From: Mesorhizobium sp. B2-7-2
GTDB lineage: Bacteria > Pseudomonadota > Alphaproteobacteria > Rhizobiales > Rhizobiaceae
Length of the DNA: 64,000 nt
Assembly (NCBI RefSeq): GCF_006440775.1
Contig: NZ_VFTZ01000003.1
Span: 310,001 to 374,000, forward strand
Direction of reading: 5' to 3'
Each line of letters opens with the position of its first letter. Positions within the stretch are counted from its first letter, which is position 1. Below are positions 8,596 to 25,757 of the stretch, piece after piece. The position numbers and the translations under genes are program-made. Under the pieces are notes generated by a model. The model saw nothing but the letters and a program-made list of their open reading frames with translations, was not told the DNA's origin and made no database searches.

Positions 8596-8599
8596 ATCG

Positions 8600-8962: not shown

Positions 8963-9313
8963 GCTGCGTTTTACTAGCCGGCGACGTCAGGTGGGCTTTC
9001 TAACCTGGCTTCCTAGAAGCCGACGGTCCGCTTCCGGCCTCATTGCGGCCATTCCAGAAATTGGGCGGGCTCATACGGAGGGATATGGGAAGCTTCGGAG
9101 TTTTGGCCCAAAAAAACTTGGTAAAATCAACGATTTCAGTACGTCCTCCGGCACACCATTATCCTTATTTATCAGTGCTTTATGGGCGGTTCGCTAATGC
9201 CAGCGACGGGATCAGCTCAGCATTTTTAAGGCATGGACTTGAGGCTTGCGTGCAGCCCTTCATGCCCCTGAGCTCAGATGTCGGGCTATTGCGCGCCCGG
9301 GCGGCGAGCGACA
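8963..9313. other. Non-coding gap between two convergent blocks
   Basis: No gene is supported here. The part from about 9100 to 9180 is richer in A and T than the surroundings (for instance CCCAAAAAAAC and GGTAAAATCAACG). Short open frames show no recognisable domain, including no remnant of the SIS domain missing from the truncated RpiR gene. It lies between the ends of a plus-strand and a minus-strand operon, so it should hold terminators, but I see no clear hairpin with a T-run. Confidence 0.5.
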
Positions 9314-10225
9314 CTATTGTTCGAAAGGCTCTCCCAGCGAAGCCACGCCGTTGAGCTTGAGCAGACGCCGGTTCGAAGAAATGATGCCCAGCACGACGAT
9401 TGTCACGAGATAAGGTAGGCTCGACAGAAGTTGCGAGGAAACGTCGAGCCCAGTTGCCTGGGCTGCGAGGCTTGCGAGGGACACGGCGCCGAAGAGGCAA
9501 GCACCAAGGAAGATACGGCTGGTAAGCCAAGTGCCGAAGACGACGAGCGCGATCGCTATCCAGCCGCGCCCGGCGATCATGCCATCGGCCCAGAGCGGAG
9601 TGTAGACCACGGCCGCGTAGGCACCGGCGAAACCCGCCAACGCGCCGCCGAAAGCGACCGCGGCGAAGCGCACGGCGATTACCGGATAGCCGAGCGCACG
9701 GGCCGCCTTGGGATTCTCGCCGACGGCGCGGATGACGAGGCCGGTCTTTGTGTGGGCGAACACCGCCCAAATGGCGACGGTCGCAGCAAGCGAAAGCCAC
9801 ACGACAATGTCTTGGCTGAACAAGCCGCCGATGACCGGGATATCTGAAAGCCAGGGCAATGAGAGCTTCGGAAGCCCTTTGACCGTGAGGCTCTCAAAGC
9901 TCTTGCCGAACAGCGCCGACAGGCCCTGGCCGAGGATGCCGATGGCGAGGCCCGTCGCAACCTGGTTCGCCCGGAATCCCAGCGCCACGACGGCAAAGAC
10001 AAGGGAAAGAGCGGCGCTGGCGAGACCAGCGGCGAGGAAACCCAGGAGATGCCCGCCGCCTTGATAGACGATGATGAAGGCAATGACTGCGCCGAGGGCC
10101 ATCAGGCCCTCCACACCGAGATTGAGGACCCCGGCGCGCTCGGCCACCAGTTCGCCGAGCGCCGCCAGAAGGAACGGCGTAGCCGCCGCCAACATCCCGG
10201 CGAGGATGAACTCCAAGGCGTTCAT
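9314..10225 (-). CDS. BMP-family ABC transporter permease 2 (YufQ/NupQ-like)
   Basis: I start the gene at the ATG at 10225, which overlaps the previous stop (ATGA) and gives MNALEFILAGMLAAATPFLLAALGE, the usual family N-terminus; 303 residues. The motif AERAGVLNLGVEGLMALGA is typical of permeases of the nucleoside/purine (BMP) importers, and VGENPKAARALGYP is the cytoplasmic loop that meets the ATPase. Eight to ten hydrophobic helices are visible. It is the last gene of the eight-gene operon that begins at 17495 and pairs with the longer permease upstream. Confidence 0.88.
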   Translation of the reverse strand: MNALEFILAGMLAAATPFLLAALGELVAERAGVLNLGVEGLMALGAVIAFIIVYQGGGHLLGFLAAGLASAALSLVFAVVALGFRANQVATGLAIGILGQGLSALFGKSFESLTVKGLPKLSLPWLSDIPVIGGLFSQDIVVWLSLAATVAIWAVFAHTKTGLVIRAVGENPKAARALGYPVIAVRFAAVAFGGALAGFAGAYAAVVYTPLWADGMIAGRGWIAIALVVFGTWLTSRIFLGACLFGAVSLASLAAQATGLDVSSQLLSSLPYLVTIVVLGIISSNRRLLKLNGVASLGEPFEQ

Positions 10226-11322
10226 GGCGTGCTTCCGCGGGCGACATGGCGCCATTCGAGCCGATAGCGGACGAAGGCGACGGCGACAAGATAGGCAAGC
10301 AGCAGACTGCCCTGGAATACCCTGACCGCAGCGACCGGCAGATTTGCCGAGACCATGGCGTTATCGCCACCGATATAGAGGGCCGCCATGAGCAACGCGG
10401 AAAAGACGATGCCGACCGGGTGAAGGCCTCCGAGATAGGCGACGATGATGGCGGCATAGCCGTAGCCGGTCGAGATGGAGCGCTGCAACTGTCCGAGCGG
10501 CCCGGCCACCTCGGCCGCTCCGGCGAGCCCTGCCGCGAAGCCACCGACGAGGAGCGAAAGCCAGATCGCACGTCCTTCGTTGAAGCCGGCGTATCCGGCG
10601 GCGCGCGGCGCGAGGCCGCCGACCTGCAGCTTGTAACCCGCGAAACTCCTCTGCATGAACAGCCAGGCCGCGAGGGAGAAGGCGCAGGCGACAAGCAGCG
10701 AGACGTTGACGCGGGTGCCGGGGATCAGGATCGGCACCATCGCGTCAAACTGGAACATCACCGATTGCGGGAAGTTGAAGCCATTCGGATCCTTCCAGGG
10801 GCCGAGAAGCAGATAGTTGAGCAATTGCGCGGCAACGAGCGCCAGCATGAGCGACACGAGAATCTCGTTTGCGTTGAGCTTCACGCGCCAGAAGGCCGTG
10901 AGCGACGCCCACAGCGCGCCGCCCAGCGCGCCGATGACGAGCATGGATGGCCAGATCCACTGGCCCGTTGCCTGGGGGAACCAGACGGGAATGGCGGATG
11001 CGAAGATCGCGCCGAGGATGAACTGACCCTCGGCGCCGATGTTGAAGACCTTTGCGCGAAAGCCGATCGCAAGCCCCTGCGCGATCAGCAGGAGCGGCCC
11101 CGTCTTCAGCAGGACTTCCGAGAACGAGGCCCAGGACAGGAAAGGCTCCAGAAGCATCGCGTGGAAAACGGCTACCGGATCGCGGCCCATCAGGAGGTAG
11201 AGCCCGAGATTGAGGAGTGTCGCCAGGCCGAGCGCCACGGGCGGAGCGACCAGCTTCACGGTAAGCGAGGCATGCTCCCGGCGAACCAGAACCGGAAGCA
11301 ACGGCCTGGAAAGAGCACTCAT
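10222..11322 (-). CDS. BMP-family ABC transporter permease 1 (YufP/NupP-like)
   Basis: The 366-residue membrane protein is the larger of the two permeases of a nucleoside/purine-type importer. Landmarks are PLLLIAQGLAIGFRAKVFNIGAEGQFILGA, shared with the partner permease as an NLGVEG/NIGAEG motif, LNANEILVSLMLALVAAQLL and YGYAAIIVAYLGGLHPVG. Its start overlaps the ATPase stop by four bases and its stop overlaps the next permease start, so translation of the importer parts is coupled. Substrates of this family include nucleosides, purines and related heterocycles. Confidence 0.88.
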   Translation of the reverse strand: MSALSRPLLPVLVRREHASLTVKLVAPPVALGLATLLNLGLYLLMGRDPVAVFHAMLLEPFLSWASFSEVLLKTGPLLLIAQGLAIGFRAKVFNIGAEGQFILGAIFASAIPVWFPQATGQWIWPSMLVIGALGGALWASLTAFWRVKLNANEILVSLMLALVAAQLLNYLLLGPWKDPNGFNFPQSVMFQFDAMVPILIPGTRVNVSLLVACAFSLAAWLFMQRSFAGYKLQVGGLAPRAAGYAGFNEGRAIWLSLLVGGFAAGLAGAAEVAGPLGQLQRSISTGYGYAAIIVAYLGGLHPVGIVFSALLMAALYIGGDNAMVSANLPVAAVRVFQGSLLLAYLVAVAFVRYRLEWRHVARGSTP

Positions 11323-12848
11323 GCCGGGACCTTCGTGGCCATTGATTGCGCGCCGATCATGTAGCGGCCGATCTCCTCGGGTCTGGTGTCGCGCGTCACC
11401 AGCGGCGGGCTCAGCCGGCCCTGATGGATCACCTGGATCGAATCGCAGAGTTCGAACAGTTCCTCCAACTCCTCCGAGATGACGAGGATGCCCATGCCTT
11501 CGTTGCGCAGCGCGACAAGGCGCCGGCGGATGGCGGAGGCCGCGCCGATGTCCACGCCCCAGGTGGGTTGCGCCACGAACAGCAATTTCGGGGACAGCAT
11601 GATCTCGCGGCCGACGATGAACTTTTGCAGATTGCCGCCTGAAAGCGCGCTGGCCTCCGCTTCGGAACCGGGCGTGCGCACGTCATATTGCCGGATGCAG
11701 TTCTCGGTGAAAGCCTTCGCCCGGGCTGTGTCGACAAGGCCGCGTTTCAGCAGGCCGAACGGATGGGCGGTCAGAAGGCTGTTGAGGACGAGCGACATTT
11801 CCGGCACCGCGCCGCGGCCGAGCCGTTCCTCCGGAACGAAAGCGAAGCCCAGCCGGCGGCGGGCGGCCGTATCGAGCGCGCCGACATCCTTTCCCATCAT
11901 GTAGATGCAATTGGACTTTTGGCGCGGCAGCACCGTTTCGCCCGAGATCAGCGCCGCGAGTTCGCTCTGCCCGTTGCCCGATATGCCCGCTATGCCGAGG
12001 ATCTCACCGGCACGCACCGTCAGATTGACGTCGCAAAGCGGCACCGCGAAGGGATCGTCAGGCTGATGGTCCAGGCCGACGATTTCGAGGCGCTTTTCGC
12101 CGCCGGAATGCGCCAACGCCGGCATGGGCTGCGGCATGTCGCGGCCAATCATCATGCGGGCGAGGTCGTGCGCGTCATGATCGCGCGGGTCCACGTGGCC
12201 GGTAACGCGCCCGCCGCGCAGGATGGTCGCTCGGTCGCAGACCGCCCGGATCTCTTCCAGCTTGTGCGAGATGAACAGGATCGAAACGCCGCCGTCGCGC
12301 AGCCGCCGCAAAGTCTCGAACAGCTTGTCCACCGATTGCGGCGGCAGGACGGAGGTCGGTTCGTCGAGGATCAGGAGCTGGGGTTCGGTCATCAGGCAGC
12401 GAATGATCTCCACCCGCTGCCGTTCTCCTACCGACAGCGCGTGCACATGGGCAAGCGGATCGACCTCGAGTCCGAAGTCGCGGCCGAGCGCACGGATGTA
12501 TTCCGCGAGATCCGCTTTGCCCTTGGGCACGACCAGGCGGATGTTCTCCACCACCGTCAGTGTTTCGAACAAGGAGAAATGCTGGAAGACCATGCCGATC
12601 CCCTTGCGCCTCGCATCCGCGGGGGAAGCGAGGGCCAGGGGGTCTCCTTTCCAGGTCGCCGTTCCGGCGTCCGGCTGCTCGACGCCGTAGATCAGCTTCA
12701 TCAGCGTCGACTTGCCCGCTCCGTTTTCCCCGAGGATCGCATGGATCGAGCGTGGAGCCACATCCAGATCGATGTCTCGATTGGCATGGATCTGGCCGTA
12801 GCTCTTGCAGATGCCGCGCAGCGACAGGAGCGGGACGGTCACGGTCAC
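11319..12848 (-). CDS. BMP-family ABC transporter ATP-binding protein, two ABC domains
   Basis: The 509-residue protein starts at a GTG that overlaps the binding-protein stop (GTGA). The N-terminal domain is complete: GENGAGKST (about 40-48), LSVGERQ as an altered signature, and LLILDEPTS. The C-terminal domain has a degenerate Walker A (GISGNGQSE), an intact LSGGNLQK and a Walker B without the catalytic Glu (LLFVAQPTWGVD). This asymmetry is normal for the sugar/nucleoside class of importer ATPases. It couples ATP hydrolysis to the two permeases encoded next. Confidence 0.9.
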   Translation of the reverse strand: MTVTVPLLSLRGICKSYGQIHANRDIDLDVAPRSIHAILGENGAGKSTLMKLIYGVEQPDAGTATWKGDPLALASPADARRKGIGMVFQHFSLFETLTVVENIRLVVPKGKADLAEYIRALGRDFGLEVDPLAHVHALSVGERQRVEIIRCLMTEPQLLILDEPTSVLPPQSVDKLFETLRRLRDGGVSILFISHKLEEIRAVCDRATILRGGRVTGHVDPRDHDAHDLARMMIGRDMPQPMPALAHSGGEKRLEIVGLDHQPDDPFAVPLCDVNLTVRAGEILGIAGISGNGQSELAALISGETVLPRQKSNCIYMMGKDVGALDTAARRRLGFAFVPEERLGRGAVPEMSLVLNSLLTAHPFGLLKRGLVDTARAKAFTENCIRQYDVRTPGSEAEASALSGGNLQKFIVGREIMLSPKLLFVAQPTWGVDIGAASAIRRRLVALRNEGMGILVISEELEELFELCDSIQVIHQGRLSPPLVTRDTRPEEIGRYMIGAQSMATKVPA

Positions 12849-13942
12849 TTGGGCAGCGGCGTGGTGACACCCTTGACGTGCCAGTCCATGGCAACGATCT
12901 CGGCCCCGGTCATCGTCTTGCCGGCGGGCACGCCCTCGCTGCCGTCGGCCTTGACGATCGGACCGGTAAAGGGCGAGAAGCTGCCGTCGGCGATCTTGGC
13001 TTCAACGTCCTTGATCCTGGCCATCATGTCGGCCGGTATTCCCGGGTTCCAGTCAACGACCTCGACAACCTTGTCGCCGACACCCAGGAAAGCGTTTGCG
13101 CCCTTGAAGGTGCCGGCGATGTGGGCGTCGACCGAGGCCTTGAAGAAGGGCGACCAGTCGGTCGCCACGCAGCCGAGATAGTTTTTGGGCGCGTATTTCT
13201 TCATCGACGAGTTGAGGTTGAAGGCGGGGACGCCGGCCTCTTCGCAGGCCGAGACGACGGAGGGTGTGTCCTGCGCGTTGGAGAAGATCACGTCGCATTT
13301 CTGCGCCAGCAGCGCCTTGGCGGCCTCCTGCTCCTTGGCCGGATCGAACCAGGAGTTCACCCATACGACCGAAACCTCGACATCGGGCTTCACCGCCTGC
13401 GCTCCCAGCGTGAAAGCGTTGATGGAGGTGATCAGCTCGGGAATGGCGAAGGCAGAGACCGAGCCGAGCTTGCCGGTCTTCGAAAGCGCGGCCGCCGCCA
13501 TGCCCATAAGGTAAGTACCTTGGGAATATTGGGCTGCGAAGGGCGAGAAGTTCGGCGCCACCTGGAAACCGGAAGCGTGCAGCACGGTTACGTCGGGATT
13601 GCGGCGCGCGATCTGCAGGGCGCCGTTCTGATAGCCGAAGGAGCCGGCGACCAGGAACTTGTTCCCGTCGGCGACCGCCTTGTTCATGATCCGGTCGGCA
13701 TCGGGTCCTTCCTGTATGTTCTCGATGATGGTCACCTTCACCTTGTCGCCGTAGGCAGCCTTCACAGGCTCAAGCCCGTCGGCGAGCGCACGGCCCCAGC
13801 CGACATCGCCGACCGGCGACGGGACTACGAGCACGATGCCCAGAGGTTCGTCGGCGGCAAGCGCGCGGCCGCCCACCGCCACGACGAGCCCAGAGGCGGC
13901 CGCGCCTTTCATCAATGTTCTGCGGGTAAGATTTGTCAGCAT
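12845..13942 (-). CDS. BMP family substrate-binding protein (purine/nucleoside-type ABC importer)
   Basis: The open frame continues far upstream into the amidohydrolase gene, but the real start is the ATG at 13942, giving 365 residues. Residues 1-30 hold a twin-arginine-like signal (TRRTLMKGAAASGLVVAVGGRALA). The mature protein has the BMP/PnrA fold: GWGRALADGLEPVK, FLVAGSFGYQNGALQIAR, GTYLMGMAAAALSKTGKLG, and DVIFSNAQDTPSVVSACEEAGVPAF. Family members bind purine nucleosides or related heterocycles. It lies between an amidohydrolase and the ATPase in one operon with a Rieske oxygenase, which suggests an N-heterocyclic ligand. Confidence 0.87.
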   Translation of the reverse strand: MLTNLTRRTLMKGAAASGLVVAVGGRALAADEPLGIVLVVPSPVGDVGWGRALADGLEPVKAAYGDKVKVTIIENIQEGPDADRIMNKAVADGNKFLVAGSFGYQNGALQIARRNPDVTVLHASGFQVAPNFSPFAAQYSQGTYLMGMAAAALSKTGKLGSVSAFAIPELITSINAFTLGAQAVKPDVEVSVVWVNSWFDPAKEQEAAKALLAQKCDVIFSNAQDTPSVVSACEEAGVPAFNLNSSMKKYAPKNYLGCVATDWSPFFKASVDAHIAGTFKGANAFLGVGDKVVEVVDWNPGIPADMMARIKDVEAKIADGSFSPFTGPIVKADGSEGVPAGKTMTGAEIVAMDWHVKGVTTPLPK

Positions 13943-13965
13943 GTCGGTTCCCCTTGTTTTGGTTT

Positions 13966-15345
13966 CTAAAATTCCACCGTCGCAAGCGCCGCCTCGGCTT
14001 GCGCGAACAGCCTGGCCTCGTCGAGCCCCGGGAATTCGCCTTTGGCCCAGACGATGCGGCCGTTGATCATGGTCATGTCGGTCGGCGCGCCGATGCCCAC
14101 CTTGGCCAGCAGGCTTAGCGGATCGTGCCGCGTGCCGACATAGTCCATGCGCCGCGTGTCGATGGCGAAAAGGTCGGCGGCCATGCGGGGCGCCAGCTTG
14201 CCGATTTCGCCGCGTCCGAGCAATGCCGCGCCTCCGGTCGTCGCATAGCCGAGAAAATCGGCCGGCGGCGGCACCGGATGGTCGCGCGTCGACGCCGACA
14301 GGCACTGCAGCATGTAGGCGGAATGTATGCAGTGCATCAGGTTGGAATTGTCGTTTGAGGCGGCGCCGTCGCAGCCCAGACCCACACTGAGTCCGAAGGC
14401 TGACATCGCCGGAATGTCGGTGATTTCGGCGCCGACGAGGTAGACCGGTTCCGGGCAGTGGGCGACGCCGGTGCCGCTCGCGGCCATCTTGCGCAGCTCG
14501 TCGTGGGTCAGTTCCCAGCAATGGGCATAAAAGGTATCCGGCCCGCAGAAGCCGATGTCCGCGCAATAGTCCACCGTGCGCATGCCGTGACGGGCCTCGA
14601 TCACGGGGCTTTCGCCCTCGCCGACATGGGTATGCATGCGCACCCCGCGGTCGCGCGCCAGCGCCACCGATTCCACGAAGGTGTCGCGATAGCAGTTGAC
14701 TGGCTGGCAAGGCGCGACGACGACCTGCCGCATGCCGAAGGGACCGGCATCATGGTAGGCGTCGATCAGCCGGGCGCAGTCGGCGATGAATTCGTCGGTC
14801 GTTTCCAGCATGGCGTCGGGGATGGTCGAGCCTTCCGATTTGGGCAGCGTGTTGCCGCCACGTCCGGCATGGAAGCGCATGCCGAGCAGTTCGGCTGCTT
14901 GGAACTGCCGGTCGATCAGCTGCTTGCCCGCCTGCCGCGGAAAGCAATACTGATGGTCGAATGCCGTCGTGCAGCCGTGCTTTATCAGCTCGGCCATCGC
15001 CGTGACCGATGCGTGGTAGAAGCATTCCTCAGTCAGCCGCGAGAAAATGGGATAGATGCGGTCGAGCCATTCGATGACCGACAGCTTCGTCCAGTCCAGA
15101 TCGGCGCGGTTGCGCACGAAGCATTGAAAGAAATGATGATGGGTGTTGACGAGGCCGGGATAGACGAACCAGCCAGCGGCGTCCTGCGTGATTGTTCCAA
15201 CGGGCAGCTCTGCCTTGTCGAGGCCTGCGCCGATGGCCCGTATTGCCGGGCCGTCGGTCAAGACATCGACATTGCGTCGGATATCCGGACCGTTGCCCTC
15301 GTCCACGATGACCGCAGCGCAGCCCTTCAGCAAATAGCCCGCCAC
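13966..15345 (-). CDS. Amidohydrolase, TRZ/ATZ family (8-oxoguanine/isoxanthopterin deaminase-like)
   Basis: The 459-residue enzyme begins with GTG one base after the GST stop. It is a metal-dependent (beta/alpha)8 amidohydrolase: NTHHHFFQ gives the H-x-H metal pair, HTHVGEGESP and AHCWELTHDE give the next two His ligands, and GLGCDGAASND supplies the metal-binding Asp. The flanks form the usual beta-sandwich (start VIVDEGNG, end MTMINGRIVWAKGEF). Cytosine deaminase-like relatives hydrolyse exocyclic amines of purines, pterins and triazines. The GLGCDGAASNDNSN region looks most like 8-oxoguanine deaminase. It probably deaminates the imported heterocycle or the oxygenase product. Confidence 0.85.
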   Translation of the reverse strand: MAGYLLKGCAAVIVDEGNGPDIRRNVDVLTDGPAIRAIGAGLDKAELPVGTITQDAAGWFVYPGLVNTHHHFFQCFVRNRADLDWTKLSVIEWLDRIYPIFSRLTEECFYHASVTAMAELIKHGCTTAFDHQYCFPRQAGKQLIDRQFQAAELLGMRFHAGRGGNTLPKSEGSTIPDAMLETTDEFIADCARLIDAYHDAGPFGMRQVVVAPCQPVNCYRDTFVESVALARDRGVRMHTHVGEGESPVIEARHGMRTVDYCADIGFCGPDTFYAHCWELTHDELRKMAASGTGVAHCPEPVYLVGAEITDIPAMSAFGLSVGLGCDGAASNDNSNLMHCIHSAYMLQCLSASTRDHPVPPPADFLGYATTGGAALLGRGEIGKLAPRMAADLFAIDTRRMDYVGTRHDPLSLLAKVGIGAPTDMTMINGRIVWAKGEFPGLDEARLFAQAEAALATVEF

Positions 15346-15346
15346 G

Positions 15347-16006
15347 TCAGGCCTCGCCGACTTCGAGGACGGGCGCAGGTGTCAATTCGTGCAGCCGGTG
15401 GATGCCCGGCATCTCGATGAAGCCCTCGAGACTGCGGACCGCCCGTGACCAGAGCCGGATCGCGGGATAGGGGTCGAGCGAAACGCCGCCGTCCGGCGCC
15501 AGCGCAACATAGGGAAAGCAGGCAATGTCGGCGATCGTCGGTCGATCCGACGCGAGGAAGCGCTGGCCGCGGACATGCTGTTCGACGAGGCCGGCTTCCA
15601 GCTCCCGCAGGGCCGCTGTTCCCTGCTCCCGAAGGGCGGCGATATTGCCCGGACGCAGCAGCATCTCGTGCAAGCGCGCCGCCCCAAGGCTCGCGGTCAG
15701 CCGGTGCGAGAAGGACAGCCATTGCTGGACGCGCGCCGCCCGCCCGGCCGTATCATTGCCCAGCCATTGGGGTGCCGCCTTCGCGGCGAGATAGACCAGC
15801 ATGGCCGAGGATTCGGTCAGCACGAGGTCGCCATCCTCCAGGATCGGGATCGAACCCGCCGGATTGAGCGCCATGAGCTCAGGACCGCGATGCTCGCAAC
15901 CGGGATGGAAGTCGACAGGGCGGATGTCGAGCGTCACCCCGATCAGCGCAGCCATGAGGCGCACCTTGTAGCAGCTCGGCGACAGCACGTAGTCGTAGAG
16001 CTTCAT
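15347..16006 (-). CDS. Glutathione S-transferase family protein (possible NdmE-like scaffold)
   Basis: The 219-residue protein has a thioredoxin-like N-terminal domain (MKLYDYVLSPSCYKVRLMAALIGV, then NPAGSIPILEDGDLVLTESSAMLVYLA with the cis-Pro and E-S glutathione contacts). A helical C-terminal domain contains the FLASDRPTIADIACFPY N-capping motif. It overlaps the oxygenase gene upstream by four bases. In the caffeine N-demethylase complex NdmCDE, a GST-like protein (NdmE) holds together a Rieske-less oxygenase and its Rieske partner. The gene order here suggests the same structural role, though a real glutathione-dependent activity is possible. Confidence 0.82.
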   Translation of the reverse strand: MKLYDYVLSPSCYKVRLMAALIGVTLDIRPVDFHPGCEHRGPELMALNPAGSIPILEDGDLVLTESSAMLVYLAAKAAPQWLGNDTAGRAARVQQWLSFSHRLTASLGAARLHEMLLRPGNIAALREQGTAALRELEAGLVEQHVRGQRFLASDRPTIADIACFPYVALAPDGGVSLDPYPAIRLWSRAVRSLEGFIEMPGIHRLHELTPAPVLEVGEA

Positions 16007-16848
16007 TGCGCCACCAGTTGCGCGCCGTAGGTGTAGCCGTGGCGTTTCAGCCAGCGCCGGTAGGCAACCGAGGTAAGGTCGGCGCGCGTGGGGATCTCCA
16101 TGCCGGGATCGAGCGGGAGCAGCGTCGGAATCTGGTTTTCGAGGATCGACCGGTCCTGAACGAAGATCGTCTGCTGGAAATGGATCAGGTCGGTCATCGG
16201 TGTTTCGTCATCGAACAGCGCCATCCATGGCCAGACGTCGCACAGGTCTTCGGCAAGTGGCTGCACGAAAAGTGTGATGACGTCCCATTCCGCCGGGCGA
16301 GGCGGGCAGGTCTTGTAGAGCACCGAGCAGGTCGGCGCGGGCACGCGGTACATGTATTCCGTGGTGATGCCACCTTCCGCCGACTTGGCGGCCTGCGGCT
16401 GGTAGAACTTCACCTGAGTGGCCCAGACCTCGTCTTCGTCCTCTCGGATCTCGACCTTGTAGTTCTGCACCTCCGTATGCGGCTCGGCCCCCAGTATGTC
16501 GGTGTGCACGAAAGGAAAATGCGCGATGTCCAGGAAGTTCTCCACCGCACGCAATGGCGAGCAGCGCACGCGCACCACCCCGACATCGACGAGCCGCCGG
16601 CCCGGCTGATCGGCCTCGGGGATCGCAAACAGCGGCTTTTGTGGATCACCGAGCGACGACCAGACATGGCCATAACGGATGCAGGCCGGCAGGTCACGTC
16701 CGTTGCCGCCCGTGACCTTCGCGTTTCCATCTTCGCCGCGCCTCACCGCGATCGGCTCGCCCATCAGGGCCGTCCTGCGCCCATGCGCATCGAGCTGGCT
16801 AGCAAGGCCGACAGGGTACCATCCGTCGATCATCGTGTTGCGGGTCAT
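16003..16848 (-). CDS. Ring-hydroxylating oxygenase catalytic subunit lacking a Rieske domain (NdmC-like)
   Basis: The 281-residue protein is the mononuclear-iron half of a Rieske oxygenase alpha subunit. The iron site is visible as NFLDIAHFPFVHTD with D107, H110 and H115 in the D-x2-H-x4-H pattern, and the later FVQDRSILENQ segment carries the third acidic position. There is no CxH...CxxH cluster motif, and normal alpha subunits are 350-450 residues. The missing Rieske domain is encoded by the gene just upstream, overlapping by four bases. The arrangement recalls NdmC of methylxanthine N7-demethylation, where N-methyl groups leave as formaldehyde. The substrate is inferred from the purine-type importer and deaminase. 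Confidence 0.86.
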   Translation of the reverse strand: MTRNTMIDGWYPVGLASQLDAHGRRTALMGEPIAVRRGEDGNAKVTGGNGRDLPACIRYGHVWSSLGDPQKPLFAIPEADQPGRRLVDVGVVRVRCSPLRAVENFLDIAHFPFVHTDILGAEPHTEVQNYKVEIREDEDEVWATQVKFYQPQAAKSAEGGITTEYMYRVPAPTCSVLYKTCPPRPAEWDVITLFVQPLAEDLCDVWPWMALFDDETPMTDLIHFQQTIFVQDRSILENQIPTLLPLDPGMEIPTRADLTSVAYRRWLKRHGYTYGAQLVAQ

Positions 16849-17495
16849 CGGGCGATTCCGGCGCGTGCAATATCCTCGGCCGCCCGCCGCAGCGCCTCGG
16901 CGGCCCTCGACGCGTCGATACGCTCGTCCGGATTGCTGTCCTCGTTCACCAAAACATGCATCAGCGTGCGCGCCTGCCCATCGGGAGCAAGCAGCAGCCA
17001 GACGGTCCGGTCATCATAGGTGTAGTCGAGCAGGCCTCCAGCGGCTTTCGTGCCCGCGGCCGCCTCCAGCGCCACGATGCCCGCTTCCACCACCATGGAG
17101 CGGAGCGGCGCAAGGCCCTCGAACCGCGGCGGTCCGGCGGCGGGTTCGCCAACCGAAATCCATATGATGCCGCCGCCATCCTCGACGTGCTGTGTCGCGA
17201 CACGAATCGTGTCCGGCGGCGTCAATGCCGGTTGGGCCGGAATGCGCTGGCAGTTTCCCGCCTTGGCGTAGCTCCAGCCGTGATAGATGCAGGCCAGGGT
17301 CTCACCGCGTACGAAGCCGTGGGAAAGGCGCATGCCGCGATGGGGGCATCTGTCGGCGAAGGCCGCCGCACGGCCGGAGCGGGTTCGCCAAAGGGCAACC
17401 GGTCCGGCCGGGGATTGCGCCGGCATAACGGTTTGCGCCGGCAAGTCCGCGGAGAGGGCAACAGGCATCCATGAGCCGGTGGGATAGGGCGGCAT
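16845..17495 (-). CDS. Rieske [2Fe-2S] subunit of the split oxygenase
   Basis: The 216-residue protein carries a Rieske cluster with C50-x-H52 (RCPHRGMRLSHG) and C69-x2-H72 (CIYHGWSY), the exact pattern of oxygenase alpha subunits. The C-terminal 110 residues have no iron-binding motif and may be an adapter that docks on the catalytic subunit. It is the first gene of the minus-strand operon and overlaps the catalytic subunit start (ATGA). No NAD(P)H reductase is present in the operon, so electrons must come from a reductase encoded elsewhere. The Rieske call is firm; the pairing with the next gene is a strong inference. Confidence 0.88.
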   Translation of the reverse strand: MPPYPTGSWMPVALSADLPAQTVMPAQSPAGPVALWRTRSGRAAAFADRCPHRGMRLSHGFVRGETLACIYHGWSYAKAGNCQRIPAQPALTPPDTIRVATQHVEDGGGIIWISVGEPAAGPPRFEGLAPLRSMVVEAGIVALEAAAGTKAAGGLLDYTYDDRTVWLLLAPDGQARTLMHVLVNEDSNPDERIDASRAAEALRRAAEDIARAGIAR

Positions 17496-17658
17496 GCATC
17501 AACTTTCAAAACGGCACCAGCATCTTCCCAATCGAAGCTTCGCGGTCAAGGATATGCTAATACGCCGGGTTACGTTTGCACAACATTTCCTCACTGGCAA
17601 TAATGCCTAAAAAAGGTGCATGACACTTCGGCAGGCAGAGGGCCGCAGGCCCAGAAAC

Positions 17659-17928
17659 CTAGCCCGATTCGCTCTCGATCGGCGCCCGGCGGATGGTCTC
17701 GACCCAGACATCGATTGGTCCAAGAGAGCACCCCATCTCCATCATGTCGATGAGTTCGGCCGGACCGGCAATGTCGAGTTCAATGCGGTCGGGACCGGCA
17801 ACGCATATCGCATGCGCGAGCCCGAGCTTGGCGGCATGACGCTCGATCCACGGAAGAAAGGATGCCACTTCGACATCGCCGAGGATCGTCATGCGCTCCC
17901 GCCAGGAACATCGATTTTGCTCGCTCAT
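17659..17928 (-). CDS. Small acylphosphatase-like protein with altered active site
   Basis: I place the start at the ATG at 17928, with GAGG about 7 bases before it, giving 89 residues. By eye the chain lines up with the acylphosphatase fold: RMTILGDVEVASFLPWIERH corresponds to the first strand, loop and helix 1, and RIELDIAGP and LGPIDVWVETI to later strands. The catalytic Arg of the family's G-V-x-F-R loop appears to be replaced (VASFL), and the VRN Asn region reads ICV. It may be a non-catalytic relative. It lies between a GntR gene and the oxygenase operon on the same strand. The assignment is tentative. Confidence 0.5.
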   Translation of the reverse strand: MSEQNRCSWRERMTILGDVEVASFLPWIERHAAKLGLAHAICVAGPDRIELDIAGPAELIDMMEMGCSLGPIDVWVETIRRAPIESESG

Positions 17929-18009
17929 AGAAAACCTCGGCAATGAAGCTGATATTCTATCTATCTACATCGTGCTCAATCGCTGAAGCATCTGCTTTTG
18001 AGAGCATCG

Positions 18010-18783
18010 TCACGCCAGACCTGAAGTCGAAGACCGCGCTGACTTGATCGAATCGTCTTTACGCAAAGTTCCCCCTTTGTCGCTTCGGTGAAACATCATC
18101 CGCCGAAAGCTCATCGAGATATGCGCCCGCCTGATGTGTCCGATCGAAGCCCAGTCGCCGATCTCGGCCGCCGCGAGCACCTCCGCGATTTCCCGGCGGA
18201 ACGCGGCGAACTCCTCGGCCAGGCCAAGCCGCGGCATCATTTTCAAGACGACCCGTGCGACCTGGAAATAGAGCCGCTCGCTGATGTCGCGCAGCGGCTG
18301 GTTTCCGGTCATCGCGCTCAGCTCATAGAAGAAATCCATGTTGAGCCGCAGGAAAGCGCGCTGGTCCGGATGGAGGATGTGGGCGTCGCAGCGCTCCATC
18401 AGCGCGCGTATGCGGTCGAGATCGGCACCGGTCCGCGGAATTGGCGACAATTTGCCGATCAATTCCGCCAGCTCCATGCGCAAATGGTAGACCTGCTCCA
18501 ATTCCTCGATGTCGACGTCGGTGACGATCGTGCCGACACCATGGACCGACTGGACCAGGCCTTCCGATTCCAGACGCGCAAGGACCCGCCGGACCGGAGT
18601 CCGGCTGACTTCGAACTCTTGAGCGAGCTCTTCTTCCGACAGGTGGTTCCCGGGGGGATAGTCGAGCAGGCAGATACGGTCACGCAGAATCCTGTAGATG
18701 CGTTCCGATCTCTCCCGCGCCGAAGGCGGTCGCGTTGGACCGATCGTGGCCTGCTCTATCGCCGCATCGTCGTTGCGGGTCAT
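18010..18783 (-). CDS. GntR family transcriptional regulator (FCD/FadR subfamily)
   Basis: The 257-residue protein has an N-terminal winged helix (IYRILRDRICLLDYPPG, LSEEELAQEFEVSRTPVRRVLARLESEGLV, about residues 30-95) and an all-helical FCD ligand domain. Its start overlaps the stop of the ABC ATPase gene by four bases, so it is the last gene of the amino-acid importer operon that starts at 21855. It is the likely sensor for the importer's substrate and could also control the divergent sox block. Two palindromes in the divergent promoter region (21957 and 22032) fit the kind of site GntR dimers bind; the link is inference. Confidence 0.88.
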   Translation of the reverse strand: MTRNDDAAIEQATIGPTRPPSARERSERIYRILRDRICLLDYPPGNHLSEEELAQEFEVSRTPVRRVLARLESEGLVQSVHGVGTIVTDVDIEELEQVYHLRMELAELIGKLSPIPRTGADLDRIRALMERCDAHILHPDQRAFLRLNMDFFYELSAMTGNQPLRDISERLYFQVARVVLKMMPRLGLAEEFAAFRREIAEVLAAAEIGDWASIGHIRRAHISMSFRRMMFHRSDKGGTLRKDDSIKSARSSTSGLA

Positions 18784-19559
18784 CCCGCCTCCAGCACCGC
18801 GCGCAGGAATTGCCGCGTCCGTTCGTTCTTCGGCGCGCCAAACAGCTCGCTTGGAGGTCCCTGCTCGCAGATCTTGCCTTGGTAGAAGAAGCAGACCCGG
18901 TCGGAGAATTCCTTCGCGAAACCCATCTGATGGGTGACCATCAGCATTGTGAGGTCATGCTCCCGCCCGATTTGCCTTATCACCTGCAGCACTTCGCCGA
19001 CAAGCTCGGGGTCGAGCGCCGATGTCACCTCGTCGAACAGCATGATCTTTGGCCGCATGGCGAGCGCCCGCGCGATCGCGACGCGCTGCTGCTGTCCGCC
19101 GGAGAGCTGCGAGGGATAGTGAGCCTTCTTCTGCGACAGGCCGACCATGTCGAGCAACTCGGCCGCGCGCGCCTCGGCGTCGGCGCGTTTCATGCCGAGC
19201 ACAGTCATCGGCGCCTCGATGCAATTGGCCATCGCGCTCATATGCGGGAACAGGTTGAACGATTGGAACACCATGCCGATCTTGGCCCGTACCCGCCTGA
19301 TATGGCCGAGATTGGCGGGAACCAGCTTGCCGCCCTTGTCCATATGCGTGAGCGGCTCGCCTTCGACCCAGATGACGCCGTCATTGATCGTCTCCAGCGT
19401 CATCAGCATGCGCAGTACCGTCGTCTTGCCGGAGCCGGAAGGTCCGATGATCGACACCTTTTCGCCGCGCGCAATGTCGAGGCTGAGCCCGTCGAGAACC
19501 GTCAGCGCGCCATAACGTTTCGACACATTGTCGAAGCGCACCATGGGCTGGTCCGTCAT
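18780..19559 (-). CDS. Polar amino acid ABC transporter ATP-binding protein (GlnQ/HisP type)
   Basis: The 259-residue ATPase has Walker A GPSGSGKTT (39-47), signature LSGGQQQ (152-158) and Walker B IMLFDEV (172-178). Extra Q-loop and lid segments (MVFQSFNLFPHMSAMAN) are typical of the PAAT family. It powers uptake by the two permeases encoded directly upstream, with its start overlapping the permease stop. The binding protein at 20995 resembles ectoine/hydroxyectoine (EhuB) proteins, but the divergent enzymes point to an N-methylated amino acid or guanidino compound. Confidence 0.9.
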   Translation of the reverse strand: MTDQPMVRFDNVSKRYGALTVLDGLSLDIARGEKVSIIGPSGSGKTTVLRMLMTLETINDGVIWVEGEPLTHMDKGGKLVPANLGHIRRVRAKIGMVFQSFNLFPHMSAMANCIEAPMTVLGMKRADAEARAAELLDMVGLSQKKAHYPSQLSGGQQQRVAIARALAMRPKIMLFDEVTSALDPELVGEVLQVIRQIGREHDLTMLMVTHQMGFAKEFSDRVCFFYQGKICEQGPPSELFGAPKNERTRQFLRAVLEAG

Positions 19560-20212
19560 CGTGGAGTCCTCCGGTTGAGCAGGCGTTCCAGAATACGGAT
19601 GAGCGCGGCCGAGACCAGGCTCATCACCAGGAAGAACAGGCCGACGAGCGTCATCGGCTCGGTGTAGCGGAAGGTGTCGGAGCCGATGATCTTAGCCGTC
19701 TGCATCAGTTCGAGAACGGCAATGGCCGACAGCAGCGGCGTCTCCTTGAACAGCGCGACCAGGTAGTTGCCGAGCGCCGGAACGATCGGCGGAATGACCT
19801 GCGGGATGATGATATCGCGAAAGGTCGCCCATTGCGGCAGGTTGAGCGCGATCGACGCCTCCCATTGGCCGCGCGGGATGTTGTCGAACCCGGCGCGGTA
19901 CACTTCCGAGCAGTAGGCCGCATAATGAAGTCCGATCGCGATCACGCCGGCGGTGAAGGCGTCCAGCACCACGCCGAATTTGGGAAACACGAAATAGAGG
20001 AAGAAGATCTGGATGAGCAGCGGCGTCGAGCGGATCAGCTCGACCAGCACCGATATCGGCCAGGCCGTCCACGGTATGGCGATGCGCACCAGGGCGAGCG
20101 CCAGACCGAGCAGGGCCGCGATGACGAAGCCGATCAGCGTCGCCTCGATGGTGATGATCGCAGCACTTGCCAGCGTCGGCAGGATTTCGAGCGCGAAGGA
20201 CCAATCCCACAT
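19556..20212 (-). CDS. Polar amino acid ABC transporter permease 2
   Basis: The true start is the ATG at 20212 (MWDWSFALEILPTLASA), sharing one base with the previous stop (TGATG); the open frame further upstream belongs to the shadow of the other permease. The 218 residues hold about five membrane helices. The conserved PAAT signature runs from YCSEVYRAGFDNIPRGQWEA to FRDIIIPQVIPPIVPALGN and includes the EAA-type loop that contacts the ATPase. It forms the pore together with the permease encoded upstream, in the manner of HisM and HisQ. Confidence 0.88.
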   Translation of the reverse strand: MWDWSFALEILPTLASAAIITIEATLIGFVIAALLGLALALVRIAIPWTAWPISVLVELIRSTPLLIQIFFLYFVFPKFGVVLDAFTAGVIAIGLHYAAYCSEVYRAGFDNIPRGQWEASIALNLPQWATFRDIIIPQVIPPIVPALGNYLVALFKETPLLSAIAVLELMQTAKIIGSDTFRYTEPMTLVGLFFLVMSLVSAALIRILERLLNRRTPR

Positions 20213-20940
20213 CAGGCGGCCCTCCCTCGCGAGAGCCCGGCGGACGCCCGCTGCTCGAGAAACCGCATGCCGATCGTGATCGCGAGCGACATGACGAGAT
20301 AGATCAGAAGCACCAGAGTGAAGATCGGGACGGTTTTCAGCGTGCTCTGGTTCATCTGCTGCGCCTTGAAGGCGAGGTCCGTCAGCGTGATGAGCGACAC
20401 CAGCGCCGTCGACTTCAGGAGCTCGATGAACAGGTTGCCCCAGGGCGGGATCATGGCGACGAAAGCCTGCGGCAGGATGATCCTGCGCAGCATCTGGGCG
20501 CGGCTCATGTTGAGGGCGATCGACGCTTCCCACTGGCCGGGCGCCACCGCTAGGATCGCTCCGCGCACCACTTCCGATCCGTAGGCGCCGACATTGAGGC
20601 CCAGCGCCAGCACGGCCACCGTGAAGGCGTCCATCAGCAAGCCGAATTGCGGCAACACGAAAAACAGCCAGAAGAGCTGCACCAGCGCGGAGGTGCCGCG
20701 AAAGATCTCGACATAGACCGTCGCCAGCCAGCGCAGCGGTGCCGCCCCGTAGAGGCGGGCAAGCGCCGCCAAGACGCCCATCACCACGGCCAGCACGCTC
20801 CCCAGCACGGCGATTTCAATGGTCAGCAGCGCTCCCTGCAGCAGTCCCGGCAGGAACAGGCTGTAGGAGGTCTGCGTGGCGAGCAGGCCGATCACCGCCA
20901 ATGCGGCAACCAGCATGCCAACAAGCGTCCGGATGCCCAT
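20212..20940 (-). CDS. Polar amino acid ABC transporter permease 1
   Basis: The 242-residue permease has an N-terminal helix (TLVGMLVAALAVIGLLATQ) and the PAAT core LQGALLTIEIAVLGSVLAVV. The family signature continues through NVGAYGSEVVRGAILAVAPG, QWEASIALNMSRAQMLRRII and LPQAFVAMIPPWGN. It lies 54 bp downstream of the binding-protein stop, and the gap is filled by a strong terminator hairpin, so the permease is expressed by read-through at a lower level. It pairs with the second permease gene, which it touches by one base. Confidence 0.88.
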   Translation of the reverse strand: MGIRTLVGMLVAALAVIGLLATQTSYSLFLPGLLQGALLTIEIAVLGSVLAVVMGVLAALARLYGAAPLRWLATVYVEIFRGTSALVQLFWLFFVLPQFGLLMDAFTVAVLALGLNVGAYGSEVVRGAILAVAPGQWEASIALNMSRAQMLRRIILPQAFVAMIPPWGNLFIELLKSTALVSLITLTDLAFKAQQMNQSTLKTVPIFTLVLLIYLVMSLAITIGMRFLEQRASAGLSRGRAA

Positions 20941-20953
20941 CTGCCTCTCCGAA

Positions 20954-20980
20954 GAAAAAAGGCGGCGCCGAAGCGCCGCC
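20954..20980 (-). terminator. Intrinsic terminator with UUCG tetraloop after the binding-protein gene
   Basis: Read on the minus strand, 20980-20961 forms an 8-bp perfect GC stem (GGCGGCGC / GCGCCGCC) closed by a TTCG loop, followed at once by six T residues (20960-20955). This is a textbook rho-independent terminator. It sits 14 bp after the stop of the substrate-binding protein and before the permease start, so it should set the ratio of binding protein to membrane parts. Confidence 0.85.
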
Positions 20981-20994
20981 CGGAGTTGGGACTT

Positions 20995-21855
20995 TTACTT
21001 GCCGGCGCAGAGCTCGGCGGTGGTCTTGTTCGGCAGATAGTCCTTGCCGAAGCCGAACGGCTCGACCAGGGCGACGTGTTCGGGCGAGCCGATGAATTTC
21101 TTCAGCTCGGCGTTGAAGGCCTTCTGCAGGTCGGTATCTTCCTTCCTGAATCCGAAACCGCCATGACCTTTCACCGACTTTCCGTTCACCTCACCGAAGG
21201 GCTTGGTGGACTCGACACCGTCGGCCTTCTTGGCCATCTCGGCGATCGACAGCGCCGTCAGCGCGGCGGCGTCGGCGCGACCCGACTGAACCGCGGCAAC
21301 CAGGCTCGACTGGTCCGGCAGGACCACGAGCTGGCCTTGAGAGACGCCGGCATCCTTCGCTTCCGCCCCTTCGACGGCTCCGGCCATGACCGCGAGCTTG
21401 AGGCTGGAATTGTCCTTGAAAGTCGAAAAGTCCTTAACCTGCTTCGGATTGCCCTTCTGCACGAGCATCGCCGCGCCGATGCCGTAGGACGGCTCGGAGA
21501 AGTTGATCTCGGCGCAACGCTTGGGATTGATGAACATGCCGGCGGCGATGATATCGAAGCGCCCGGCCTTGAGACCCGGGATGAGCGAGCCGAACTCGGT
21601 CAGCACGCCGTCGACCTGCTTGATGCCCATCTTGGCCAGCACCGCCTTGGCGACTTCCGGCGCCTCGCCGGTCAGCTTGCCGTCGGGCGTGGCGTATCCG
21701 AACGGCGCCTCGTTGGCGAAGCCGACCCGGATATAGCCGTCCTTCTTGGCGCGCTCCAGCGTCGTGTCGGCCAGCGCTGCTGCGGTGCTGGACAACATGA
21801 CAAGCCCCGCGCCGAGTCCAAGCGCGGTGCGGCGCGAAATTCTGATCGTCATCAT
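20995..21855 (-). CDS. Polar amino acid ABC transporter substrate-binding protein (EhuB-like)
   Basis: I use the ATG at 21855, preceded by GGGAGCAAG; upstream Met codons lack a ribosome site and would spoil the signal. The 286-residue protein has a Tat-like signal (RISRRTALGLGAGLVMLSS, cleavage near ALA). The type-2 binding fold shows as YIRVGFANEAPFGYATPDG, FGSLIPGLKAGRFDIIAAGM and LVQKGNPKQVKDFS. The sequence resembles EhuB ectoine-binding proteins from memory, but the divergent genes encode sarcosine oxidase and creatinase-like enzymes. Candidate ligands are therefore sarcosine, creatine-like or ectoine-like compounds. It is followed by a strong terminator. Confidence 0.85.
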   Translation of the reverse strand: MMTIRISRRTALGLGAGLVMLSSTAAALADTTLERAKKDGYIRVGFANEAPFGYATPDGKLTGEAPEVAKAVLAKMGIKQVDGVLTEFGSLIPGLKAGRFDIIAAGMFINPKRCAEINFSEPSYGIGAAMLVQKGNPKQVKDFSTFKDNSSLKLAVMAGAVEGAEAKDAGVSQGQLVVLPDQSSLVAAVQSGRADAAALTALSIAEMAKKADGVESTKPFGEVNGKSVKGHGGFGFRKEDTDLQKAFNAELKKFIGSPEHVALVEPFGFGKDYLPNKTTAELCAGK

Positions 21856-21956
21856 CTTGCTCCCATTTTTGCGAAACCGCCGCCTAACCCGACCCCTTTT
21901 TTTCGGCATTGAGCAGCTTGAACGTATGGTTGCAGATTTTTCGCCGCGTTTCAATA

Positions 21957-21968
21957 GATGTGCACATC
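21957..21968. promoter_or_regulatory. Perfect 12-bp palindrome in divergent promoter region
   Basis: GATGTGCACATC is a perfect inverted repeat 102 bp upstream of the binding-protein start (minus) and 148 bp upstream of the first M24 gene start (plus). Its position between two divergent catabolic units and its TGTGCACA core suggest an operator, most likely for the GntR protein encoded at 18010. Confidence 0.45.
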
Positions 21969-22031
21969 AATGGCCTTCGAAAAACGAAAAAACCTTGACA
22001 GGGTCGAAAACTGAGGCCGATATTGGCGGAA

Positions 22032-22043
22032 GTTGTACACAAC
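22032..22043. promoter_or_regulatory. GntR-type inverted repeat in divergent promoter region
   Basis: GTTGTACACAAC has perfect 5-bp arms (GTTGT/ACAAC) around a two-base centre, close to the TTGTnnACAA form known for several FCD-type GntR regulators. It lies 61 bp upstream of the M24 start at 22105 and 75 bp from the palindrome at 21957, so both divergent units could be controlled together. Confidence 0.45.
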
Positions 22044-22104
22044 ATGCCTCAACCGAAGGCGAGCAAAAATGATGCTGCGGAGCAACGGCTCCGGAGGGGG
22101 AGTT

Positions 22105-23271
22105 ATGCTGGACAAAAGCAACGGCGAAGCGGTCGCGCCCTATTTCGAGAGCGAGGAATTCGACCGGCGCCGCGACGCCGTCCGGCATGCCATGGCCGGG
22201 CGGGGCATCGACACGCTTCTCGTCTCGGCGCCGGAGAACATCTTCTATCTGACCGGCCTCGATCACTGGGGCTATTTCGCGCCGCATATCCTGGTCGTTC
22301 CGGCCGATGGCGAAATGATCCTGCTGACGCGCGCCATGGAAAAGGTAACCATTGCCAACCAGGTCAGGAACGCGCGCTTCGAGGGGCACCATGACGGCGA
22401 GACGGTCGCCGATCTTTCAGGACGCGTGCTTTTCGGCAGGCTCGGCGCCGTCGGTATCGAGTCCTGGTCGTCCGGCCTGCCGCACGGGCTTGCCGAGGCG
22501 CTGAAGGAACGCCTGAGCGCCGCGCGCTGGGTCGACGCATCCGGCATCATCGACGACATCCGCATGGTCAAGAGCCCGGCAGAGCAGGCCTTGATGCGCG
22601 CGACCGCCAAGATATCCGACGCCGGCGCGCAGGCTGCGATCGAGGCGATCGGGGAGGGGGCGAGCGAGCGCCATGTCGCGGCGGAAGCCGAGCGCGCGAT
22701 GATCGAGGCCGGCGGCACGTTCCCCGGCTTCGGTCCGTTCATCCGTTCCACCCGGCGGCTCGGCGAGGAGCACACGACCTGGACGAGCGACCGGTTCGGT
22801 GCCGGCGATGCGGTCTTCCTCGAACTGACCGGCTGCGTCGCCCGCTACCACGCGCCTCTCGGCCGCCTTATCCATGTCGGCCAAGCCTCGAAGGAGACCT
22901 ACGAGATGGCAGCGCTCACGGCCGACGCCTTTGCGGCAGTCGTCGGCGCGATGCGCGAGGGCGTCCTGTTCCGCGACGTCTATGCGGCTTGGCAGGGCGT
23001 GGTCGACCGCGCCGGCCTCTCGCATTACCGCCGCCATCATTGCGGCTATGTGGTCGGCATCGGCCTGCCGCCGAGCTGGACCGGCGGCAACAAGGTGACG
23101 GGGCTGCGCCGCGACAGCGACATCGTGCTCAAGACCGGCATGAGCTTCCATGTGCTCTCCTGGCTGATGGGCACCGGCCGCGGCGATTTCTTCATGTCCA
23201 ACGCGGTGCTTCTGGGTCCCTCGGGCGCCGAGGTGCTGACCAGGACGCCCTCGGGCGTGACCGTGCGCTGA
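22105..23271 (+). CDS. M24 family creatinase/ectoine-hydrolase-like protein, copy 1
   Basis: The start is the ATG at 22105, a few bases after a strong GGAGGGGGAG; this gives 388 residues. The N-terminal creatinase domain (RRDAVRHAMAGRGIDTLLVSAPENIFYLTG) is followed by the pita-bread domain (KSPAEQALMRATAKISDAGAQ). The metal-binding D...D positions of aminopeptidases are replaced (LELTGCVARYHAPLGR), as in the metal-free enzymes creatinase and ectoine hydrolase DoeA. It would hydrolyse a C-N bond of an imported amino acid derivative. It forms a pair with the next gene, 11 bp away, and the two may act as a heteromer. The substrate is unproven. Confidence 0.82.
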   Translation: MLDKSNGEAVAPYFESEEFDRRRDAVRHAMAGRGIDTLLVSAPENIFYLTGLDHWGYFAPHILVVPADGEMILLTRAMEKVTIANQVRNARFEGHHDGETVADLSGRVLFGRLGAVGIESWSSGLPHGLAEALKERLSAARWVDASGIIDDIRMVKSPAEQALMRATAKISDAGAQAAIEAIGEGASERHVAAEAERAMIEAGGTFPGFGPFIRSTRRLGEEHTTWTSDRFGAGDAVFLELTGCVARYHAPLGRLIHVGQASKETYEMAALTADAFAAVVGAMREGVLFRDVYAAWQGVVDRAGLSHYRRHHCGYVVGIGLPPSWTGGNKVTGLRRDSDIVLKTGMSFHVLSWLMGTGRGDFFMSNAVLLGPSGAEVLTRTPSGVTVR

Positions 23272-23282
23272 GGACATCGGCG

Positions 23283-24470: not shown

Positions 24471-24487
24471 AACCCAAGAAGCCTCCG

Positions 24488-25744: not shown

Positions 25745-25757
25745 GGGAGGCCGAGAC

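Follow-up and report, generated by a model that had tools for sequence, protein, structure and literature searches.

A Mesorhizobium operon related to NdmCDE that may encode a Rieske oxygenase with its two redox centres on separate chains

The contig NZ_VFTZ01000003.1 of Mesorhizobium sp. B2-7-2 (assembly GCF_006440775.1) contains, within the 64,000 nucleotides analysed here (positions 310,001 to 374,000, hereafter the window, in whose own numbering coordinates are given unless a related locus is named), three overlapping genes on the minus strand that encode a stand-alone Rieske subunit (RSK), a Rieske-less catalytic subunit (CAT) and a glutathione S-transferase-like protein (GST). We put at roughly 0.6 the probability that the operon to which this trio belongs specifies a hetero-oligomeric Rieske oxygenase with its two redox centres on two chains, whose substrate is probably a modified purine. 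Gene order, motifs, homology, predicted folds, phylogeny and the layout of a shared module were computed, and are taken in turn below.

Motifs of the two redox centres on two chains

RSK (216 residues, 16845–17495), CAT (281 residues, 16003–16848) and GST (219 residues, 15347–16006) lie in this order of transcription, and 4 bases are common to each neighbouring pair of open reading frames (ORFs). An earlier reading of the window (the sequence-only reading) had described a 281-residue catalytic subunit with D107-x2-H110-x4-H115 but no Rieske cluster, a separate 216-residue Rieske protein (C50-x-H52, C69-x2-H72) and a GST-like gene, all overlapping by four bases; the ORF coordinates, the iron motif and a Pfam Rieske match in RSK (2e-20) confirm that description.

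CAT is matched by Pfam VanA_C (1.8e-19), and its iron ligands H110, H115 and D232, together with the bridging D107, are identical in all 41 Rieske-less and all 10 full-length proteins compared. The Rieske motif is missing from all 41 CATs. Their N-terminus (residues ~1–64 in CAT) is nevertheless a Rieske-domain shell without its cluster subdomain: between two fixed alignment columns, CATs have 46–63 residues vs 94–106 in the 10 full-length proteins, which indicates that the cluster subdomain was cut out and the flanking strands were kept. When the AlphaFold2 (AF2) model of CAT is superposed on GxtA residues 5–334, 267 of 281 residues align (Z 27.9, root-mean-square deviation (rmsd) 2.6).

RSK is the mirror image. 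Its Rieske motif is kept in 26/26 RSKs or NdmD heads, none of which (0/26) has a D-x2-H-x4-H iron motif after the Rieske domain, and its C-terminal part (about residues 125–216) is a shrunken remnant of the catalytic domain. The AF2 model is confident (predicted local distance difference test (pLDDT) 93.9, predicted template modelling score 0.89), and it superposes on GxtA residues 3–307 over its entire length of 216 residues (Z 19.3, rmsd 3.2), while the Rieske part matches a lone Rieske ferredoxin with Z 15.3 over 102 residues. Compared with the CAT profile, the RSK C-terminus scores 34.4, a value reached by none of 200 column shuffles (highest 19.2). Neither CAT nor RSK is a canonical Rieske oxygenase alpha subunit with both centres in one chain. 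Our reading of these models is that both would descend from such a complete alpha subunit and would have lost opposite centres, leaving complementary relics; judging by homology, the same origin may extend to NdmC and NdmD.

Relationship with NdmCDE and other Rieske oxygenases

NdmCDE, a caffeine-degrading N7-demethylase complex of Pseudomonas putida CBB5, was compared through P. putida MT178 (L138), where a gene matching solved NdmB over all 355 residues (785 bits) identifies the ndm cluster and makes the NdmC, NdmD and NdmE encoded there usable as references. CAT shares 43% identity with MT178 NdmC and 47% with NdmC of Paraburkholderia caffeinilytica, and GST shares 42% with MT178 NdmE over 205 columns (41–42% with NdmE overall). 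For RSK, the identity is 37% to MT178 NdmD (123 columns) and 32% to P. caffeinilytica NdmD (206 columns). When 19 RSKs were combined in a profile, hhalign matched it to residues 1–242 of P. caffeinilytica NdmD over 220 columns (probability 99.9), nearly the full length of RSK, so that RSK corresponds to the head of NdmD together with its C-terminal extension.

In a tree of 41 Rieske-less proteins, four NdmC-type ones among them, and 10 full-length proteins, the Rieske-less proteins form one side of a branch supported at 99/98. This excludes a position of CAT far from NdmC, the phylogenetic outcome that would have counted against the sequence-only reading, although branching among the Rieske-less groups is largely open and CAT does not pair specifically with NdmC. 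In the Rieske-domain tree, 16 stand-alone RSKs (98/95) and 10 NdmD heads (95/93) form two separate groups, united against full-length Rieske domains with weaker support (80/70). Both trees have only 10 full-length outgroups, one with a very long branch. The proposals of the sequence-only reading that CAT is kin to NdmC and GST to NdmE, and that the operon is a different partition of the same parts, are thereby supported: CAT falls in one group with NdmC, GST shows the identity given above, and RSK is a detached NdmD head with the stand-alone form in a group of its own.

NdmCDE likewise combines a Rieske-less catalytic subunit with a GST-like partner and carries the Rieske domain, with the same C-terminal extension, on a non-catalytic chain. 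Unlike in NdmCDE, the Rieske head of the window is free of a reductase fusion and no reductase gene lies beside the trio, and the operon has an acylphosphatase-like gene, a deaminase and a BMP-type ATP-binding cassette (ABC) importer. The window has, in short, the NdmC-related subunit and the NdmE-related partner of an NdmCDE-type system but not its Rieske–reductase fusion. One report calls NdmCDE very unique among Rieske oxygenases and mentions that Sinorhizobium and Mesorhizobium have ndmCDE-like loci, homologues whose function is unknown (PMC4408171). Such loci have CAT homologues (~43–48% identity), a GST and a nearby BMP ABC importer, as in the window; those of this layout that were read differ from the window in having a fused Rieske–reductase of 566–588 residues and often two tandem CATs. 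SxtT and GxtA (SxtDIOX), the best solved matches for CAT and RSK in both sequence and fold, are full-length and hold both centres in one chain, unlike CAT and RSK. The Rieske N-demethylases NdmA and NdmB share the catalytic fold and iron ligands of CAT but also have both centres in one chain; MT178 NdmB is 22% and the presumed NdmA 26% identical to CAT.

Several CAT relatives were noted in passing. Leptolyngbya boryana (L143, 2680–3654) encodes, directly after ABC permeases, a full-length Rieske oxygenase whose matched part shares 37% identity with CAT and which is a possible unsplit relative. In P. caffeinilytica p1 (L133, 8983–9834), the NdmC-type gene is annotated to start at 9151 while homology begins at ~9001, so that the annotated start looks too late, and in L052 (9907–10476) a CAT 3' of an intact RSK begins only at family residue 94 and may be truncated or frameshifted.

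Conservation and the shared module

A scan of named genomes gave at least 566 confirmed CAT relatives. The best 80 of 566 were kept (80 named loci, clade A), a set that therefore leans toward near relatives and includes nine loci shorter than 15 kb, where absence of neighbours carries little weight. All 80 loci keep RSK, CAT and GST in order on one strand, which shows that the arrangement is not due to chance, and in the 41 inspected for it the RSK/CAT overlap is 4 bases in 37, 1 base in three and none in one. An assembly error or frameshift splitting a single gene is ruled out, the split being present in all 80 kept loci and each half keeping relics of the other's domain. The nearest named relatives among the matches listed are Mesorhizobium strains, in two of which CAT is 99% identical. 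A CAT relative at E 1e-15 is encoded by 73 of 297 genomes of the family, and the relatives scan shows the system to be common in rhizobia and Rhodobacteraceae rather than a singular case.

Many clade B genomes encode two different CATs about 15–18 kb apart. In 15 of 15 loci chosen for this spacing, exactly one acylphosphatase-like/RSK/GST module lies between the two CATs, and the same arrangement is found in R. tumorigenes (L136) and in the locus (L037, L038) of G019, which, together with G268, is one of two further genomes with this spacing. Where both CATs are in the tree, in L136 and G019 (L031, L037), they fall in different groups. The simplest reading of these gene orders would be that one Rieske module serves two catalytic subunits. 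Two other loci have a different layout: L198 has one CAT, and L199 a tandem CAT pair with a fused reductase.

The islands around the two-CAT loci L136 (1–20206, plasmid pRt932 of R. tumorigenes) and L037 also encode a xanthine-dehydrogenase-like enzyme, a GMC oxidoreductase, a thiamine pyrophosphate enzyme (split in L136), amidohydrolases and a BMP-type ABC importer, and might represent an undescribed purine or pterin catabolic island. Sinorhizobium meliloti 1021 has on pSymA three CAT homologues within 19 kb (L134), of which one stands alone and the other two form a tandem followed by an NdmD-like fusion, and the whole pSymA record has five places with CAT homologues. A CAT homologue in L051 (8944–9813) adjoins a BMP-type transporter; the 19 kb piece contains no RSK, reductase or acylphosphatase-like gene, and there is a Rieske-oxygenase-like match at its edge.

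Electron input and the acylphosphatase-like fourth gene

Three layouts of electron input were found. In the first, NdmD-like fusions of 566–588 residues accompany one or two CATs (L044, L045, L047, L048, L049, L141 and the ndm clusters). In the second, a stand-alone RSK, CAT and GST are accompanied by a VanB-like reductase gene (L041, L046, L050 and L052, clade C). In the third, to which the window belongs, RSK is stand-alone and no reductase gene is nearby. A reductase-like match is absent from the DNA analysed at 79 of the 80 named loci, the exception being a 26% match upstream in L104, and likewise from clade A loci L034 and L035, clade B loci L036, L037, L039, L040, L042, L043 and L136, and L183–L198. 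At the level of whole genomes, a VanB-like reductase was found at E 1e-10 in 24 of 30 searched genomes with clade A or B systems. The genome of the window has one VanB-like match at E 1e-6, on another contig, beside genes that we take to be dimethylamine-oxidation-like.

The operon extends beyond the trio. Upstream of RSK lies ORF94 (17659–17943, minus strand), an acylphosphatase-like frame of 94 residues whose exact start is uncertain. Of 18 aligned rows, 15 are hit by PF00708 when E values up to 10 are admitted (best 2.3e-7); the copy in the window has an E value of 0.0072 and stays under the gathering cut-off (17.0 bits vs 22.5), and the R. indicum record names its copy acylphosphatase. The catalytic arginine of acylphosphatases lies in the GVGFR loop. 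At the aligned position, arginine is present in 0/18 rows of a first alignment (A3) and in 0/23 rows with a residue there of a second (A6), two rows of A6 having an arginine one column further.

A scan with a hidden Markov model found the ORF94 gene in 91 of 93 loci with a stand-alone RSK and in none of 11 with a fused NdmD; the profile's 18 rows come from stand-alone loci and match by construction, which is not so for the other hits among the 91. L100 was under the scan's length limit and hence unscanned, but tblastn finds the gene there. The possibility that ORF94 stands in for a missing reductase is ruled out, since all four clade C stand-alone loci (L041, L046, L050 and L052) have both, with the ORF94 gene at the far end of the transporter genes. 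This coexistence indicates that ORF94 tracks the free Rieske head and not the missing reductase gene. The suggestion of the sequence-only reading that this may be a three-part enzyme is incomplete: the trio is real, but the system is not simply three-part, as a fourth gene tracks the stand-alone form, and in relatives a VanB-like reductase is encoded either beside the trio or not there at all. One conjecture in keeping with these data is that ORF94 may help a separate electron donor to dock.

A broader scheme, which we advance tentatively and would sooner doubt than defend, is that of a modular class with complementarily degenerated subunits, in which a shared RSK, a GST scaffold and a dead acylphosphatase-like adaptor would power interchangeable catalytic subunits. 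In such a class the acylphosphatase-like protein may dock the separate donor on the free RSK, a task needless in NdmD because its Rieske–reductase fusion is covalent, and NdmCDE would be the fused member.

Gene neighbourhood and probable substrate

Downstream of the trio, on the same strand and as far as ~9314, the operon continues with a deaminase-like gene and an importer. The amidohydrolase gene (AMH, 13966–15345), whose start lies 1 base past the GST stop, is aminopurine-deaminase-like. It is followed by genes for the BMP/PnrA-type substrate-binding protein (12845–13942, start set by homologues), the ATP-binding protein (11319–12848), permease 1 (10222–11322) and permease 2 (9314–10225, start again set by homologues) of an ABC importer. 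Pfam Bmp matches the longer reading of the BMP frame at 4.1e-39 and the R. indicum homologue is annotated as BMP family; the ATP-binding ORF has an R. indicum homologue annotated at the same operon position, permease 1 is an ORF with an annotated homologue there, and permease 2 was assigned from its annotated R. indicum homologue and the operon pattern. Among the 80 named loci, BMP (at least 40% identity) is found in 74, permease 1 (at least 45%) in 72 and AMH (at least 45%) in 68, L117 being lost from the last count through the identity filter. The GntR gene of the window is not conserved with the trio in these 80 loci.

The best solved matches of AMH are 3hpa and 7ww2. It scores 367.5 bits with the 8-oxoguanine deaminase model (NF006055/PRK08203, cut-off 532) and 111 bits with guanine deaminase (TIGR02967, cut-off 375.4), below both cut-offs. 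Over-cut-off matches do occur in relatives: guanine deaminase in the same gene run of L136, L044, L049 and L113, and in L031 an 8-oxoguanine deaminase immediately ahead of CAT. AMH is not the only guanine deaminase of its genome, which encodes, on another contig, its own guanine deaminase and xanthine dehydrogenase, both over cut-off; AMH is therefore an additional deaminase, and as such fits a modified purine. This deaminase and the BMP-type importer together suggest a modified purine as the substrate, and the favoured, though unproven, reaction on gene context would be N-demethylation of a methylated guanine or xanthine. A frmA-type formaldehyde dehydrogenase is encoded near four clade C relatives (L045, L046, L047 and L052), and the genome of the window has two frmA-like genes at other places.

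Elsewhere in the window, M24 creatinase/prolidase-family genes lie beside genes for sarcosine-oxidase-like proteins and an amino-acid-type ABC importer (22093–28993), possibly an N-methyl amine pathway. A 3894-residue ORF with glycine-rich repeats (39710–51394, minus strand) looks inverse-autotransporter-like by eye, and a ketopantoate hydroxymethyltransferase family gene below the curated PanB cut-off (7771–8595, plus strand) lies near sugar-type ABC genes. Searching positions 8500–25000 with Rfam (E up to 5) yielded three matches, none of which attained its gathering score, and in seven related loci none was over gathering.

Proposed mechanism and alternatives

From this material we infer a possible assembly, electron route, substrate and reaction, as well as roles for GST and the acylphosphatase-like protein. 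RSK would contribute a [2Fe-2S] cluster and a shrunken, iron-free catalytic domain, and CAT a mononuclear iron and a clusterless Rieske shell, the two being assembled and held by the GST-like scaffold. In a normal Rieske oxygenase, the contact from cluster to iron runs between neighbouring subunits; here, each RSK cluster would face the iron of a CAT across the subunit interface through the invariant D107. Electrons would come from a reductase encoded away from the trio. The BMP-type ABC transporter would import the modified purine, CAT would oxidatively remove a substituent, most likely N-methyl, giving formaldehyde, and AMH would deaminate the product, feeding the separate guanine/xanthine pathway of the genome.

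Several observations weigh against this proposal. The AF2 model of CAT is moderate (pLDDT 78.9) and falls below 50 at residues 109–125, which hold both iron histidines. The match between the RSK C-terminus and the CAT profile spans only 35 columns, and Pfam VanA_C was found in 0/19 RSKs. No reductase-like match at E 1e-5 occurs in the 64-kb window, and none beside the trio, and six of the 30 genomes searched are without a VanB-like reductase at E 1e-10, all six from clade A and one only 82% complete. AMH remains under the cut-off of every named deaminase listed, and frmA has no match at E 1e-15 in the window or across the 80 named clade A loci.

The alternative that fares best, although we consider it unlikely, leaves the split architecture in place and changes the chemistry: the enzyme would hydroxylate the ring of an unmethylated purine or pteridine, much as HpxDE is linked to hypoxanthine/xanthine oxidation, and would not be an N-demethylase. 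A link of Rieske proteins to purine oxidation, described in PMC7373994, speaks for it, as do the xanthine-dehydrogenase-like and amidohydrolase genes adjoining clade B CAT1 genes and the lack of frmA near clade A. However, NdmC, the closest relative to have been characterised, is an N-demethylase, four clade C relatives have frmA nearby, and the genome already has a xanthine dehydrogenase over cut-off.

Somewhat less probable again is that the system is functionally just NdmCDE with its Rieske head on a separate gene, that is, an N7-demethylase of 7-methylxanthine or, with deamination, of 7-methylguanine. The identities of CAT to NdmC (43–47%), GST to NdmE (41–42%) and RSK to the NdmD head (32–37%) and the common tree group of CAT and NdmC agree with this, but CAT is not NdmC's own sister and the gene context is different: no NdmA or NdmB genes lie beside the trio, where a deaminase and an acylphosphatase-like protein are encoded instead, the importer is of the BMP ABC type whereas the ndm genes of L133 and L138 are accompanied by a nucleobase symporter, and the operon has no frmA.

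It is improbable that RSK ends in a small unrelated domain that only resembles a remnant and that the split arose by simple domain fission. The failure of VanA_C to match RSKs and the short profile alignment would be expected in that case, but the shuffled columns never reach the observed score, and the two RSK domains fit full-length chains together (216 residues, Z 19.3, vs 102 residues, Z 15.3, for the Rieske part on the ferredoxin). Least credible is a working glutathione transferase handling a toxic product in place of a scaffold: GST_N (1.4e-13) and GST_C domains are both over their Pfam cut-offs, but the homologue NdmE is described (PMC10380055 and PMC13237722) as a structural protein on which solubility and complex formation depend, and GST stays beside RSK in the 15/15 loci where a CAT is kilobases away.

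Implications

NdmCDE is described as a 3:3:3 complex, with NdmC alone forming inclusion bodies (PMC10380055), and the structure of the complex is described as unsolved (PMC13237722). The trio genes are already in public records under generic names. Among the matches listed in the open-access literature are papers on NdmCDE, and none on a stand-alone Rieske subunit with a GST, on the acylphosphatase link or on a shared module.

The stand-alone form of the Rieske oxygenase offers smaller parts that are separately clonable. If RSK and CAT are indeed complementary relics, this would explain the insolubility of NdmC alone and the route of electrons to it. One Rieske module between two catalytic subunits suggests that Rieske oxygenase catalysis may be modular, and usable as such for enzyme engineering. 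The operon also hints that many bacteria living in soil or in association with plants have a pathway for modified purines that has yet to be described.

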